NCBI GenBank assembly: GCA_903896045.1
Contig: CAITWD010000014.1
Location: 1 to 45,195, forward strand
DNA length: 45,195 nt
Reading direction: 5' to 3'
Source: an uncultured Actinomycetes bacterium
GTDB lineage: Bacteria; Actinomycetota; Thermoleophilia; Miltoncostaeales; Miltoncostaeaceae
Shown here: piece by piece, positions 39,900-45,050 of the stretch
Numbering within the stretch: position 1 is the first letter of the stretch
How the letters are laid out: each line of letters opens with the position of its first letter
Notes under the pieces: model-generated
The model's input: only the letters and a program-made list of their open reading frames with translations
What the model was told of the DNA's origin: nothing
Database searches by the model: none
Position numbers and translations under genes: made by a program

Positions 39900-40870
39900 G
39901 CCGCATCCAATTTGACGATCGCCCGCAACCGCGCCGACCGCGATCGAGGATTCCGATGCATTTCAGGGGCACTCGGCATGACTGCCCGGCCGTTCAATGA
40001 CCGCGCCTCGGGTGAACGACCGCATCCACACACGGGCATGTCCGGCGGGCAGATGCACCCTTGGGATCGTGCACGCATAAACCGCTTCACCGCGCGATCC
40101 TCAAGTGAGTGGAAGCTAATTACCGCAAGCGCACCATCAACGGCCAACACTCGAAATGCGGAGGCAAGCGCTGGTGGCAGCAGTTCAAGCTCCGCATTTA
40201 CCACAATCCGCAATGCCTGAAACACGCGCTTTGCAGGATGTCCACCGGCGAACAATGCACCTGCTGGGACCGCGGACCGCACGATCTCGACGAGGTCTCC
40301 CGTCGTGGTGATCGGATCAATGACACGGCGACGCACGATGGCTCGGGCGATCTGTCGGGCATACCGCTCCTCCCCATACTCGCGAAACCACCGCGCGAGG
40401 TCTGCTTCAGAGGACTCAGCAATGAGCGTCGTGGCGGAGACCTGCTGATCGGGATCCATGCGCATATCCAATGGCGCCTGACGTGCATATGAAAACCCGC
40501 GCTCGGGTCGATCGATTTGCATCGATGAAATGCCCAGATCCATCAAAATTGCGTCGGCGTGGACCCCTTCCTCGGCGAGCTCGTCAAGTGCGGTCGCAAA
40601 GTTTTGACGAATGAATCGGGTCTGACATGTGGCCTGCATGGAGAAGATGTCAAAAAATGGACGAGCATCGGGGTCTTGATCGATGGCGATATAGAGGCCG
40701 TCGGCACCAATCTCTTCTGCGATGCGCGCGGCATGGCCGCCAGCGCCAAAGGTGCAGTCCACGACGATCGCTCCTGGACGCAGGCACAGCAGTTCCATCA
40801 CCTCATCAACGAGGACGGGATCATGTGCCGTTGCCGGGTTACCCAACGCGATCGGCAAGACGCTTGGCAC
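39896..40870 (-). CDS. rsmH: 16S rRNA m4C1402 methyltransferase
   Basis: 324 residues from GTG 40870 (AGGGGG 9 nt upstream), overlapping the end of mraZ by 32 nt; the track-length frame starting at 40960 would overlap more. HDPVLVDEVMELL, VDCTFGAGGHAARIAEEI (SAM motif I), LMDLGISSMQIDRPERGFSYARQAPLDMRMD, the LARWFREYGEERYARQIARAIVRRR block and VISFHSLEDRAVKRFM are all canonical MraW/RsmH. Cys-rich CICPPDMPVCGCG precedes the basic end. It methylates the ribosomal P-site. Coupled to ftsL by ATGA. Confidence 0.95.
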   Translation of the reverse strand: MPSVLPIALGNPATAHDPVLVDEVMELLCLRPGAIVVDCTFGAGGHAARIAEEIGADGLYIAIDQDPDARPFFDIFSMQATCQTRFIRQNFATALDELAEEGVHADAILMDLGISSMQIDRPERGFSYARQAPLDMRMDPDQQVSATTLIAESSEADLARWFREYGEERYARQIARAIVRRRVIDPITTTGDLVEIVRSAVPAGALFAGGHPAKRVFQALRIVVNAELELLPPALASAFRVLAVDGALAVISFHSLEDRAVKRFMRARSQGCICPPDMPVCGCGRSPEARSLNGRAVMPSAPEMHRNPRSRSARLRAIVKLDAA

Positions 40871-41288
40871 GGGCCGATACCCCCTCGTTGCGTAGCGCTG
40901 CGAAACGATCGGCGAGACGGTCGCCATCCCAGACCTCCAAATATTCACCGGCACCGACAACTTTCACGCGGGCCTCAAGCCCTGCGTGGTCACGCAATTC
41001 AGCGGGCAGCAAGATCCGCCCTTGGCGATCGAGATCCTGCTCAAATGCCCCTGCCGACAAGAATCGACTGAGTTCACGGCCCTCGTCATCAAGCACACTC
41101 ATCGAACCAAAGGTCCGTTCAATCAGACCAGCCCAATCACCACGCGGCACAACGATCAGACACTCGTCGATCCACCAGCCCACGACCGCACCACCTATAA
41201 ATGGCTCACGAAGACGTGCCGGAATCGCCAACCGAAAACGGTTGTCGAGGCTGCACTCGTGCGTTCCTGTCAGTAGCCGACGTTGCAT
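40839..41288 (-). CDS. mraZ: MraZ division-cluster transcriptional regulator
   Basis: 149 residues from ATG 41288; the frame continues to 41324 but that part is the GTGGGG operator. Two SpoVT-AbrB-like swapped-hairpin domains: TGTHECSLDNRFRLAIPARLR and, after a hinge, DLDRQGRILLPAELRDHAGL. MraZ assembles as an octa- or dodecameric ring and binds tandem TGGGN repeats of its own promoter, repressing the dcw operon. Exactly such repeats precede this gene. The first box is also the only ribosome-site-like sequence, 3 nt from the ATG, so repressor binding and translation start share bases. Confidence 0.93.
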   Translation of the reverse strand: MQRRLLTGTHECSLDNRFRLAIPARLREPFIGGAVVGWWIDECLIVVPRGDWAGLIERTFGSMSVLDDEGRELSRFLSAGAFEQDLDRQGRILLPAELRDHAGLEARVKVVGAGEYLEVWDGDRLADRFAALRNEGVSARAKRLADRVG

Positions 41289-41291
41289 ATT

Positions 41292-41317
41292 CCCCACGGT
41301 ACCCCACATTTCCCCAC
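41292..41317 (-). promoter_or_regulatory. Triple GTGGGG MraZ operator, 10-bp period
   Basis: On the minus strand GTGGGG begins at 41317, 41307 and 41297, exactly one helical turn apart (forward CCCCAC at 41292, 41302, 41312). MraZ in E. coli and mycoplasmas binds direct TGGG-type repeats with this spacing. Further GGGG boxes occur upstream at 41334-41337, 41356-41359 and 41371-41374 without the regular period. Confidence 0.85.
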
Positions 41318-41394: not shown

Positions 41395-41408
41395 CGAACA
41401 CGTGTTCT
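41395..41408. promoter_or_regulatory. Near-perfect LexA (SOS) box, upstream copy
   Basis: CGAAC-ACGT-GTTCT, one mismatch from CGAAC-N4-GTTCG; its core GAACACGTGTTC is a perfect 12-bp palindrome. It lies 107 nt upstream of mraZ (minus strand) and 28 nt upstream of the small membrane-protein gene. It could therefore affect both divergent promoters. Confidence 0.75.
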
Positions 41409-41418
41409 GTCCGAGGCA

Positions 41419-41432
41419 CGAACTAATGTTCG
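41419..41432 (+). promoter_or_regulatory. Perfect LexA (SOS) box over the promoter of the small membrane-protein gene
   Basis: CGAAC-TAAT-GTTCG matches the Gram-positive/actinobacterial SOS box exactly. It ends 3 nt before ATG 41436. TAATGT (41424-41429) inside it is a good -10, which would start transcription at or next to the ATG and give a leaderless mRNA that LexA binding would shut off. Centre-to-centre distance to the other box is 24 bp. Confidence 0.85.
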
Positions 41433-41435
41433 GGT

Positions 41436-41783
41436 ATGACTGCAACCACATATGCGTTTCACACTCCCCGTCGGGCTTCTACCCCACACCTCGCTGTGGT
41501 CGAACCACGACGCGCCACCCGCCCACCGTTGGCGGCAACATGCGGGCTCTTTGCGGCAGGAATGAGCCCAGGATTCCTTCTTGCCGGACTTGCGTCCGCT
41601 CAAGGTGGGGCCACCATGGTGATGACTGATTTCGTGCTCTCCGGTATCTGCGCCGTCGTCGCATTTGCCGCAGCAGCGCGTGCACGCACAGTCCAACGCC
41701 AGCGAACCGCCCGCCTCCGAACGCGACCAGGAGCACAGCCAATCTCGCACGAGCACAGAGCATCGGTACGCCGCGCCGCCTGA
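41436..41783 (+). CDS. SOS-controlled small two-helix membrane protein, candidate division inhibitor
   Basis: 115 residues; not a family I can name. About 30 N-terminal residues with many Thr, Pro and Arg, a first membrane segment (about 31-55, PLAATCGLFAAGMSPGFLLA), a short loop, a second (about 61-81, MVMTDFVLSGICAVVAFAAAA) and a basic tail of 34 residues. No SD is visible and the perfect LexA box touches the ATG, so a leaderless, SOS-inducible message is likely. Small membrane proteins under LexA (YneA, Rv2719c/ChiZ, DivS, SidA) block division during DNA damage; this one has no LysM domain, which separates it from YneA and ChiZ. It is divergent from the mraZ division operon. Function is inference from context. 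Confidence 0.7.
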   Translation: MTATTYAFHTPRRASTPHLAVVEPRRATRPPLAATCGLFAAGMSPGFLLAGLASAQGGATMVMTDFVLSGICAVVAFAAAARARTVQRQRTARLRTRPGAQPISHEHRASVRRAA

Positions 41784-41880: not shown

Positions 41881-42780
41881 GTGGACGATCACTCAGCAGA
41901 TGGGCGTGCCTCAAAAATCGTTGCTGCAATCGATGTAGGAACGAATACCACTCGGCTGCTCGTGGCAAGTGTGACCCACGCCGACATCAGCCCGCTTGCC
42001 ACCGAGAGTGCGATGACGGCGCTCGGGGAGGGTCTCGACGCGACCGGAGTCATTTCATCCGATGGATTCACGCGAGTTGATGCAGCGATTCGTTCGATGG
42101 TGCATACCGCGCAATCTTTGAATGCATCGTCAATCAGCATTGTCTGTACCGCGGTGGGACGTGATGCACGCAACGCACACGAACTTCTTGAATGCATTCA
42201 TCAGGCGAGCGGGCTCGACGCACAGATCCTCACCGGCGAGCGCGAGGCAGAACTTTCCTTCCGGGGATTGATGTCGGTCACGACCACTGATCCGCTCGTC
42301 GCCGGCGATCTTGGCGGCGGGTCACTTGAGCTCATGGGAGGCGCCCATGGGGTGCTCGAGTGGTGCATTTCATTGCCGCTGGGCGTCCGTAAATTGACGG
42401 AACGTTGGGTGCACTCAGACCCGCCAGACATCGCAGTATTTGCCGATATTGCCGATATCGTTTCCAGTGAAGTGCAACCAATCGCCCGCACACACCCATC
42501 GAGCACGCTCCTGATGACGGGTGGCTCTGCGGCTGCCCTTGCGAAAATCGCGGGTACCGAGCAGTTGACGAGCACGGCGCTCATGGATGCAGCGAAGGTA
42601 CTCTCACGCGCAGATGCACCGACGATCGCTGCGCAGGTGGGATTGGACCAAGAACGCATACGGATGTCATTTGCGGGAGCCGCCGCATTCGAAGGAATCA
42701 GAACCACGTTTTCCCTCGCGGAAATCAGCGTGGCAACTGCCGGCATTCGTGAGGGAATCATTCTGGAGTCATTCGGATAA
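41881..42780 (+). CDS. Ppx/GppA family polyphosphatase
   Basis: 299 residues from GTG 41881. ASKHA-fold phosphatase: phosphate-1 loop AAIDVGTNTTRLLV, TAVGRDARNAHELL, TGEREAELSFRGL and phosphate-2 loop GDLGGGSLELM are in order, and the fold closes with LLMTGGSAAALAKIAG. The short form without the C-terminal HD domain is usual in actinobacteria. It would remove terminal phosphates from polyphosphate or pppGpp; sequence alone does not say which. It is the first gene of a coupled operon (TAATG overlap with the ATPase) that ends in CHAD proteins, favouring polyphosphate. Confidence 0.9.
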   Translation: MDDHSADGRASKIVAAIDVGTNTTRLLVASVTHADISPLATESAMTALGEGLDATGVISSDGFTRVDAAIRSMVHTAQSLNASSISIVCTAVGRDARNAHELLECIHQASGLDAQILTGEREAELSFRGLMSVTTTDPLVAGDLGGGSLELMGGAHGVLEWCISLPLGVRKLTERWVHSDPPDIAVFADIADIVSSEVQPIARTHPSSTLLMTGGSAAALAKIAGTEQLTSTALMDAAKVLSRADAPTIAAQVGLDQERIRMSFAGAAAFEGIRTTFSLAEISVATAGIREGIILESFG

Positions 42781-43616: not shown

Positions 43617-43942
43617 GCAACGTCAGCTATCAAACATTTCTTGCCGATTCGGGCCTGTCGGGTGTACCGCAATTTGCACCCCTCCCAGAGGACGCCTTCA
43701 CGCACTCCAAAAAAGATGCCGACCGTACCCTCAAGATCCGGGTGACGAAGCGACAGGAAAAATGGCTGCAGAAGATCGATGACATCACAGGAAAAGGCGT
43801 GGACACCGATGCGGTTGTGCGCACCCTCATCGACCTTGCCCGTCAGCTCGACATCGACTGGGCAATGACGGCAAGCGTGGATGCCCTTCGCGATGAGATT
43901 CGTGACGCGGTGCGGATTCGTCACACCACCACGCCCGCGTAA
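43613..43942 (+). CDS. Small ribbon-helix-helix-like protein
   Basis: 109 residues. The central TLKIRVTKRQEKWLQKIDDITG followed by DTDAVVRTLIDLARQLDIDW reads as strand-helix-turn-helix, similar to CopG/RHH or parB-partner DNA-binding dimers; the N-terminal 35 residues are loosely structured. It is squeezed between an ATPase and the first half-CHAD gene, overlapping both (ATGA with the first, TAATG-like with the second). Partner of the ATPase or regulator of the operon are both possible. Not identified by family. Confidence 0.6.
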   Translation: MSNVSYQTFLADSGLSGVPQFAPLPEDAFTHSKKDADRTLKIRVTKRQEKWLQKIDDITGKGVDTDAVVRTLIDLARQLDIDWAMTASVDALRDEIRDAVRIRHTTTPA

Positions 43943-44460
43943 TGGCCCAACCGTGGACGGTCAACGGGCTCACTCCTGACGCCGTCTTTCGGTCCGCTGC
44001 AGGACGCATCATTCTGACGCGATGGCGCGAGATGATGAGCTATCAGGACGGAACCCTCGCAGGTGCAGACATCGAGGAGCTTCATGCGATGCGGGTATCA
44101 TCTCGTCGGCTTCGCGCGGCGATGGACGCCTTCGCCGATGCATTTCCCCCACGGGAATTTCGTCGTTATTTGCGCGAGGTAAAACGCATCACCGACACGC
44201 TCGGGGACGCGCGCGATCTTGATGTGACCATTGCCCATCTCGATGCACTCCTCGTCGATCTCACGCCGATCGATCGCCCTGGAGTCATTGGCTTAATGAG
44301 CAGATACCAAGCACGCAGAGAGATCGAGACAACTCATATCGCATCCCTGTTTGCCCAGCTCGAGAACGACGGATTCTCCACGCAGTTCGAGAAGTGGATT
44401 GCGAAACACACAGGTGTCAAGGTCACCAAGTTGCGGCCGGCGCCACCGGAGATGCCCTAA
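43942..44460 (+). CDS. CHAD domain, N-terminal half
   Basis: 172 residues holding only the first four-helix bundle of a CHAD domain: the histidine-led motif ELHAMRVSSRRLRAAMDAF (His48, RVSSRRLR at 51-58) and LGDARDLDV (87-95). In a normal CHAD protein this is followed in the same chain by a second bundle with a similar motif; here that part is a separate gene. Basic residues lining these motifs bind inorganic polyphosphate in studied CHAD domains. Its start overlaps the preceding gene by 1 base and its stop overlaps the next start as TAATG. Confidence 0.85.
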   Translation: MAQPWTVNGLTPDAVFRSAAGRIILTRWREMMSYQDGTLAGADIEELHAMRVSSRRLRAAMDAFADAFPPREFRRYLREVKRITDTLGDARDLDVTIAHLDALLVDLTPIDRPGVIGLMSRYQARREIETTHIASLFAQLENDGFSTQFEKWIAKHTGVKVTKLRPAPPEMP

Positions 44461-45050
44461 TGGCAAAACCTCGTCCCGTGAGGGGAATCCAGCCCTCTCG
44501 CCGCCTCCGGCCCAATGCGCGCAAGATTCTCGCGGTCAGGATCGATGAGATCTATCAATACGACGGCCTTGTCGGCGACCCACGAAACATCACCGAATTG
44601 CATGACATGCGCATCGCCTTCAAGCGACTTCGCTATCTGTTGGAAATCTTTGGAGAGGCATTCACTCAGGATCTGGGGCCGTTCCTCGACGAGGTGAAGC
44701 GACTACAAGATCTTCTGGGCGATATTCACGACTGCGATGTGCAGGTGCCTATGCTGGTAGCACATCTGGCATGGCTCGAAGAGCAAGAATCCCAAAGTGT
44801 GGCCGCAATGCTCATTCGGGGGCAGCGGGCATCCTCGCCCGACAACTCCGATGTGGCACTTGCCCAGTTCAGGAGTCGCCTCAATGCGGCACGCAGAGCC
44901 GATGAACGACCTGGGATTCACACGCTGATCGCGCAACGTCGATCTGCAAGGATTGCGCTCTACGAGCAATTCACCACACAGTGGCGTCGATTGAAATACG
45001 AACGCTTTCGTCACCGTCTTGAAACTGCCCTCGGTATCGTGACCTCCTGA
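44460..45050 (+). CDS. CHAD domain, C-terminal half
   Basis: 196 residues with only the second CHAD bundle: ELHDMRIAFKRLRYLLEIF (His48, RIAFKRLRY at 51-59) and RLQDLLGDIHDCDV (81-94). His48 and the Arg-rich motif fall at the same residue numbers as in the upstream half, so the two genes are like the repeats of one CHAD domain cut apart. ATG 44460 begins in the stop codon of the first half (TAATG), ensuring equal synthesis. The two chains probably form one polyphosphate-binding unit. The metallophosphatase gene starts 4 nt later. Confidence 0.85.
   Translation: MAKPRPVRGIQPSRRLRPNARKILAVRIDEIYQYDGLVGDPRNITELHDMRIAFKRLRYLLEIFGEAFTQDLGPFLDEVKRLQDLLGDIHDCDVQVPMLVAHLAWLEEQESQSVAAMLIRGQRASSPDNSDVALAQFRSRLNAARRADERPGIHTLIAQRRSARIALYEQFTTQWRRLKYERFRHRLETALGIVTS

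Follow-up and report, generated by a model that had tools for sequence, protein, structure and literature searches.

Blocking a late step of cell division by means of small integral membrane proteins is a widespread solution of the SOS response (PMC13396833, PMC4211646). Among those described, YneA docks on TM7 of FtsW, SidA acts on FtsW, and SosA has no LysM domain (PMC13396833, PMC4211646); YneA needs its own LysM domain (PMC13396833). The LysM domain of YneA and the extension of SosA are the exposed periplasmic parts of these inhibitors. YneA of Bacillus subtilis and ChiZ (Rv2719c) of Mycobacterium tuberculosis are small LexA-controlled membrane proteins with a LysM domain and one N-terminal helix, and their genes lie near lexA. 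SidA of Caulobacter, with 29 aa, and SosA of Staphylococcus, both small SOS-induced membrane proteins that lack LysM, target the late divisome (PMC4211646, PMC13396833). The preliminary description of the locus studied here had proposed that each lineage made its own, unrelated inhibitor. The published small SOS membrane inhibitors are in line with this in being unrelated in sequence (PMC13396833, PMC4211646), but the proposal does not extend to YneA and ChiZ, which share the combination of a transmembrane helix and a LysM domain (TM+LysM).

Here, we analyzed a 45,195-nucleotide stretch of DNA (from here on, the window) from an uncultured member of the actinobacterial class Thermoleophilia, in which a gene for a 115-residue protein with two membrane helices lies divergent from mraZ and behind two LexA boxes (Table 1). 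Like YneA and ChiZ, the product is small, membrane embedded and by sequence comparison LexA controlled, and a small integral membrane protein with such control is what characterizes SOS division inhibitors. It differs from YneA and ChiZ in that it has neither a C-terminal LysM domain nor a single N-terminal transmembrane helix, in that its gene stands opposite mraZ rather than near lexA, in that it probably lacks an extracellular domain, and in that it has no sequence similarity to either protein. From SidA and SosA, with which it shares the absence of LysM, it differs as a hairpin with basic tails and an unrelated sequence. To our knowledge, neither SidA nor SosA is a two-helix hairpin.

Table 1. 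Coordinates of the features of the mraZ/two-helix gene region in the window
Feature	Position	Strand	Remarks
mraZ, opening the dcw operon; divergent from the two-helix gene	40839..41288	-	Pfam PF02381, E 2e-24
Putative MraZ operator, three TGGGG repeats with 10-bp spacing	41292..41316	-	Separate from the LexA boxes
LexA box 1 (CGAACACGTGTTCT), one mismatch	41395..41408	+	Right half at the -35 region of the promoter
LexA box 2 (CGAACTAATGTTCG), perfect	41419..41432	+	Covers the -10
-10 hexamer TAATGT inside box 2, 6 nt before the ATG	41424..41429	+	Implies a probably leaderless mRNA
Gene for the 115-residue two-helix membrane protein	41436..41783	+	SOS controlled by comparison; without known family
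Helix 1, residues 32-57, transmembrane	41529..41606	+	AlphaFold2 and hydropathy
Invariant G42-x3-G46, GxxxG-type helix-packing motif in helix 1	41559..41573	+	17-sequence alignment
Helix 2, membrane part, residues ~61-83, then basic cytoplasmic tail	41616..41684	+	Positive-inside rule suggests N-in/C-in

Box 2 ends 3 nt before the ATG at 41436, and box 1 starts 24 bp upstream of box 2. The preliminary description had reported a perfect box overlapping TAATGT just before this ATG and a second, near-perfect box upstream; both were found again. The core pattern GAAC-N4-GTTC occurs in the 45-kb window only at boxes 1 and 2. Matches to the box with one mismatch are not rare on their own, with 5 seen versus 2.6 expected; for a pair of boxes no more than 30 bp apart, the expectation is ~0.008 per genome of this size. 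In an alignment of 26 promoters of the two-helix gene, T(-13), A(-12) and T(-8), i.e., TAnnnT, are conserved in at least 21, and C is common at -1. Because TAnnnT stands 6-8 nt before the ATG and none of the 26 promoters has a Shine-Dalgarno-like motif, the mRNA is probably leaderless, and the spacing places the likely transcription start at or beside the A of the ATG. LexA bound to both boxes would cover the whole promoter. We note that an automatic promoter scan predicted no promoter for the two-helix gene, since its -35 is far from TTGACA. Farther along the window (43942-45050), and near a Ppx/GppA gene (41881-42780), adjacent genes encode positions 3-134 and 145-224 of the CHAD profile, as if one protein had been split.

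The genome to which the window belongs (1.67 Mb, 99.85% complete) encodes a single LexA (G000 C17:50637-51254), and GGAACACACGTTCG lies just upstream of lexA. Genome-wide, perfect CGAACN4GTTCG was found at seven sites versus a single occurrence of the reversed pattern used as a control. The other sites are located in front of imuB, dnaE2, recA, a sigma-70 gene and a cluster of two unknown genes, except for one that falls inside a methyltransferase-like frame. The same motif was present at lexA in all 10 genomes tested from family f1, the family of Thermoleophilia in which the two-helix gene occurs. Because the motif is common to lexA, recA, imuB and dnaE2, we regard it as the SOS operator of this organism. 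A LexA box of the organism's own consensus thus overlaps the promoter of the two-helix gene, as is the case for members of the SOS regulon, and these comparisons support the proposed control of the membrane gene by an SOS box, making LexA/SOS control of this gene nearly certain. At imuB and dnaE2 (L016, L017, G000 C12), the LexA box ends directly at the start codon, so leaderless promoters may be a general feature of SOS genes in this lineage. The perfect box at the sigma-70 gene (L021, G000 C21:6165-6178) lies ~77 nt upstream of it; this gene encodes a primary-type sigma factor with regions 1.1 to 4, and the box suggests SOS control of a main sigma factor. Another perfect box (L022, G000 C22:52956-52969) stands 16 nt before a gene for 80 residues that is followed by one for 339 residues; both lack a Pfam match and form a candidate SOS operon.

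The preliminary description of the product as a protein of 115 residues with two membrane helices, basic tails and no LysM or other known domain agrees with AlphaFold2, hydropathy and family searches. AlphaFold2 placed helices at residues 32-57 and 59-96 (mean pLDDT 72, pTM 0.38). All homologues have two hydrophobic segments, positive tails and a neutral loop between the helices. Based on these features, the hairpin form is almost certain, and the positive-inside rule suggests that both ends are cytoplasmic. Across homologues, the C-terminal basic tail has a net charge of +4 to +14, loop residues vary, and the sequence changes rapidly outside the helices; G42, G46 and M1 are the only invariant columns in 17 homologous sequences. 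GxxxG spacing is typical of helix packing. The homologues align from the same ATG as the 115-aa ORF, and dN/dS is ~0.2-0.45 among four congeners, which argues that the protein is under selection, though fast-changing. By these comparisons, the 115-aa ORF is a real gene. Searches of the protein against Pfam, NCBIfam, PHROGs and PADLOC returned chance-level matches only (DUF4491, E 0.06), on which grounds membership in a known family was ruled out, and no relative was found in the PDB by sequence or by fold. A mobile or phage origin was likewise rejected, since phage and plasmid records yielded no match and viral contigs no confirmed relative. The two-helix proteins form a new protein family, which probably does a known kind of job.

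To follow the gene in related genomes, we used a profile (A1) built from 17 homologues and searched in a sample of the class, with related records being labelled Thermoleophilia. Matches were found in 37 of 42 sampled genomes of f1, a family of soil and sediment actinobacteria. Among the five genomes without a match, mraZ of G016 and G035 lies close to the end of a contig, where the promoter can still be seen, G023 also has no mraZ match, and the remaining two have a completeness of only 64 and 69%. In a sample of 296 genomes of the phylum, the profile matched only f1 members, apart from three weak matches outside f1 (E 1e-7 to 1e-4); two of these sit inside long open frames. A match in G141 of family f3 (E 1e-4) was rejected as a homologue, as it is a 334-aa frame with no box. 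In every genome for which the coordinates of both genes are known, the two-helix gene neighbors mraZ and is encoded on the opposite strand. One or more strict LexA boxes were present in 38 of the 39 f1 promoters read. Two boxes, with box 2 perfect or near-perfect, occur in genera g1, g3, g5, g6 and g12, and box 2 is degenerate in g2, g8, g9 and g10. The sole boxless promoter is that of G006 (g4; L050, L191, C123), in which the two-helix gene is still opposite mraZ and the lexA box is kept. None of the homologues checked was without both box and neighborhood, the outcome that the preliminary description had named as refuting its proposal. The arrangement directly opposite mraZ was kept in all of them, and the divergent position relative to mraZ is practically certain.

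Next to this conserved locus, we considered how the close double LexA box is used elsewhere in the class. The pattern was searched in 299 genomes, with a reversed control that gave 0. In f1, the double operator belongs to the two-helix gene; in f3, f8 and f11, where there is usually one per genome, to a gene for a short LysM protein with a single helix; and in f2, f4 and one genome of f5, to lexA itself (L112-L119 for f4/f5), so that the operator is not specific to division genes. In f2, the LysM gene lies ~1 kb downstream of lexA. In sister families such as f3, f8 and f11, the LexA-boxed gene is thus of the TM+LysM type, as in YneA and ChiZ, whereas f1 has the two-helix gene instead. With a profile for the TM+LysM protein (A2; strong match, E<1e-8), 64 of 199 genomes were positive, all in f2, f3, f8 or f11 and none in f1; the two-helix gene was present in 37 of the 199, all in f1, and the two did not overlap in any genome. 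Fisher's test for this exclusion gave p 1e-7, a value that is overstated because there are few evolutionary events (one family versus four). The genome of the window, like five other f1 genomes, contains no LysM domain at all; in the remaining six of 12 f1 genomes, no LexA box was found near the LysM genes in the stretch examined, and the weak LysM matches in G005, G013 and G016 have no LexA box nearby. ORFs picked greedily around LysM loci, mostly antisense frames, were left out of these results. As judged from the genomes sampled, the SOS LysM protein was either lost from f1 or never present there, and f1 has the two-helix one instead. The mutual exclusion, with few independent events, suggests, but does not prove statistically, that the two-helix protein replaced the LysM type. 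Neither gene was found in f4, f5, f6, f7, f9, f10 and f12, which means that a dedicated inhibitor is either dispensable or of a third kind; f4 and f5 may use such a third kind.

The boxes occupy the intergenic region shared by mraZ and the small gene, and an earlier report describes LexA binding in vitro to a site located at a gut-metagenome homologue of mraZ (PMC3998124). That case resembles the present one in that a LexA box near mraZ was read as connecting the SOS response to division; the target was assumed there to be mraZ itself, whereas the boxes described here are those of the divergent small gene. We consider it very improbable that the boxes serve mraZ and the division operon, with the small gene being incidental. 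In the 26 aligned promoters, box 1 lies 40-43 nt from the ATG of the two-helix gene, while the distance from the N-terminal motif of mraZ to box 1 ranges from 126 to 478 nt (box-to-ATG distances for L013 and L032 were set by hand; G017 has extra sequence between mraZ and the box), which argues against mraZ as the target. The boxes overlap the promoter of the small gene, and mraZ has its own putative TGGGG operator beside its most likely start, read from sequence as the ATG at 41288 (MQRRLLTGTHECSLD). This triple repeat is the only one in the window and has the form known for MraZ operators. In sister families, mraZ is present but no LexA box was found at it.

Among roles for the protein itself, the main rival is that of an SOS membrane toxin or depolarizer that slows growth and ATP synthesis independently of the divisome, like the SOS-induced membrane peptides TisB and DinQ of Escherichia coli (PMC3567139, PMC11575346). 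The two-helix protein resembles these in being small, hydrophobic and, by sequence comparison, tightly LexA repressed; its rapid change outside the helices suits a membrane-active peptide, and GxxxG motifs can drive oligomers. However, TisB-type toxins have a single short amphipathic helix, a structured 5' leader and an antisense RNA as antitoxin, and they are not encoded at a division locus, whereas here we find a 115-residue hairpin with long basic tails, a leaderless-looking promoter that leaves almost no 5' UTR, and no Rfam match near the gene. A toxin also explains neither the location at mraZ nor the exclusion with the SOS LysM protein, and we regard this role as unlikely. Still lower in our estimate, and rather improbable, is a different function in the SOS response, such as envelope remodelling, anchoring of a cytoplasmic partner via the basic tails or tethering of DNA. 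The conservation of the basic C-terminal tail while the loop varies would fit such a function, and some SOS genes have no known role, but positive evidence for any specific alternative is absent, and the replacement of the LysM protein would be left unexplained.

The reading that we favor, and consider reasonably probable, is that the two-helix protein is a lineage-specific SOS division inhibitor that replaces the LysM type. The LexA motif, the location at mraZ, the conservation of the box and the exclusion with the SOS LysM protein support this reading; nearness to mraZ by itself does not imply a division role, and the near absence of a periplasmic part argues against one. For the candidate SOS checkpoint put forward in the preliminary description, the exclusion with the LexA-boxed TM+LysM protein adds support, with inhibition as such being what we infer. 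In an undamaged cell, LexA on the two boxes would cover the -35, the -10 and the start and keep the promoter shut. Upon damage, RecA on single-stranded DNA would trigger cleavage of LexA, the two-helix gene would be transcribed, and its message would be translated from the first base. The protein would then enter the membrane as a helical hairpin whose two basic tails stay in the cytoplasm. We hypothesize that helix 1, via its GxxxG face, would dock on a membrane helix of FtsW, FtsI or FtsL in the late divisome, and that the docked divisome would be held inactive, with septation stopped until repair is done.

Thermoleophilia is a deep-branching and hardly studied class of actinobacteria, and we found no literature joining LexA, SOS and Thermoleophilia. 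Whether this locus represents a new, family-restricted SOS division checkpoint, in which a hairpin without a periplasmic domain, encoded opposite mraZ and expressed from a leaderless message, took the place of the ancestral TM+LysM inhibitor in a single family of this class, is in our view evenly balanced. If so, a damage checkpoint would have been exchanged between unrelated proteins while the logic of the LexA operator stayed. The two-helix protein would then be a minimal LysM-free inhibitor, which would bear on whether docking on FtsW alone stops septal wall synthesis (PMC13396833).
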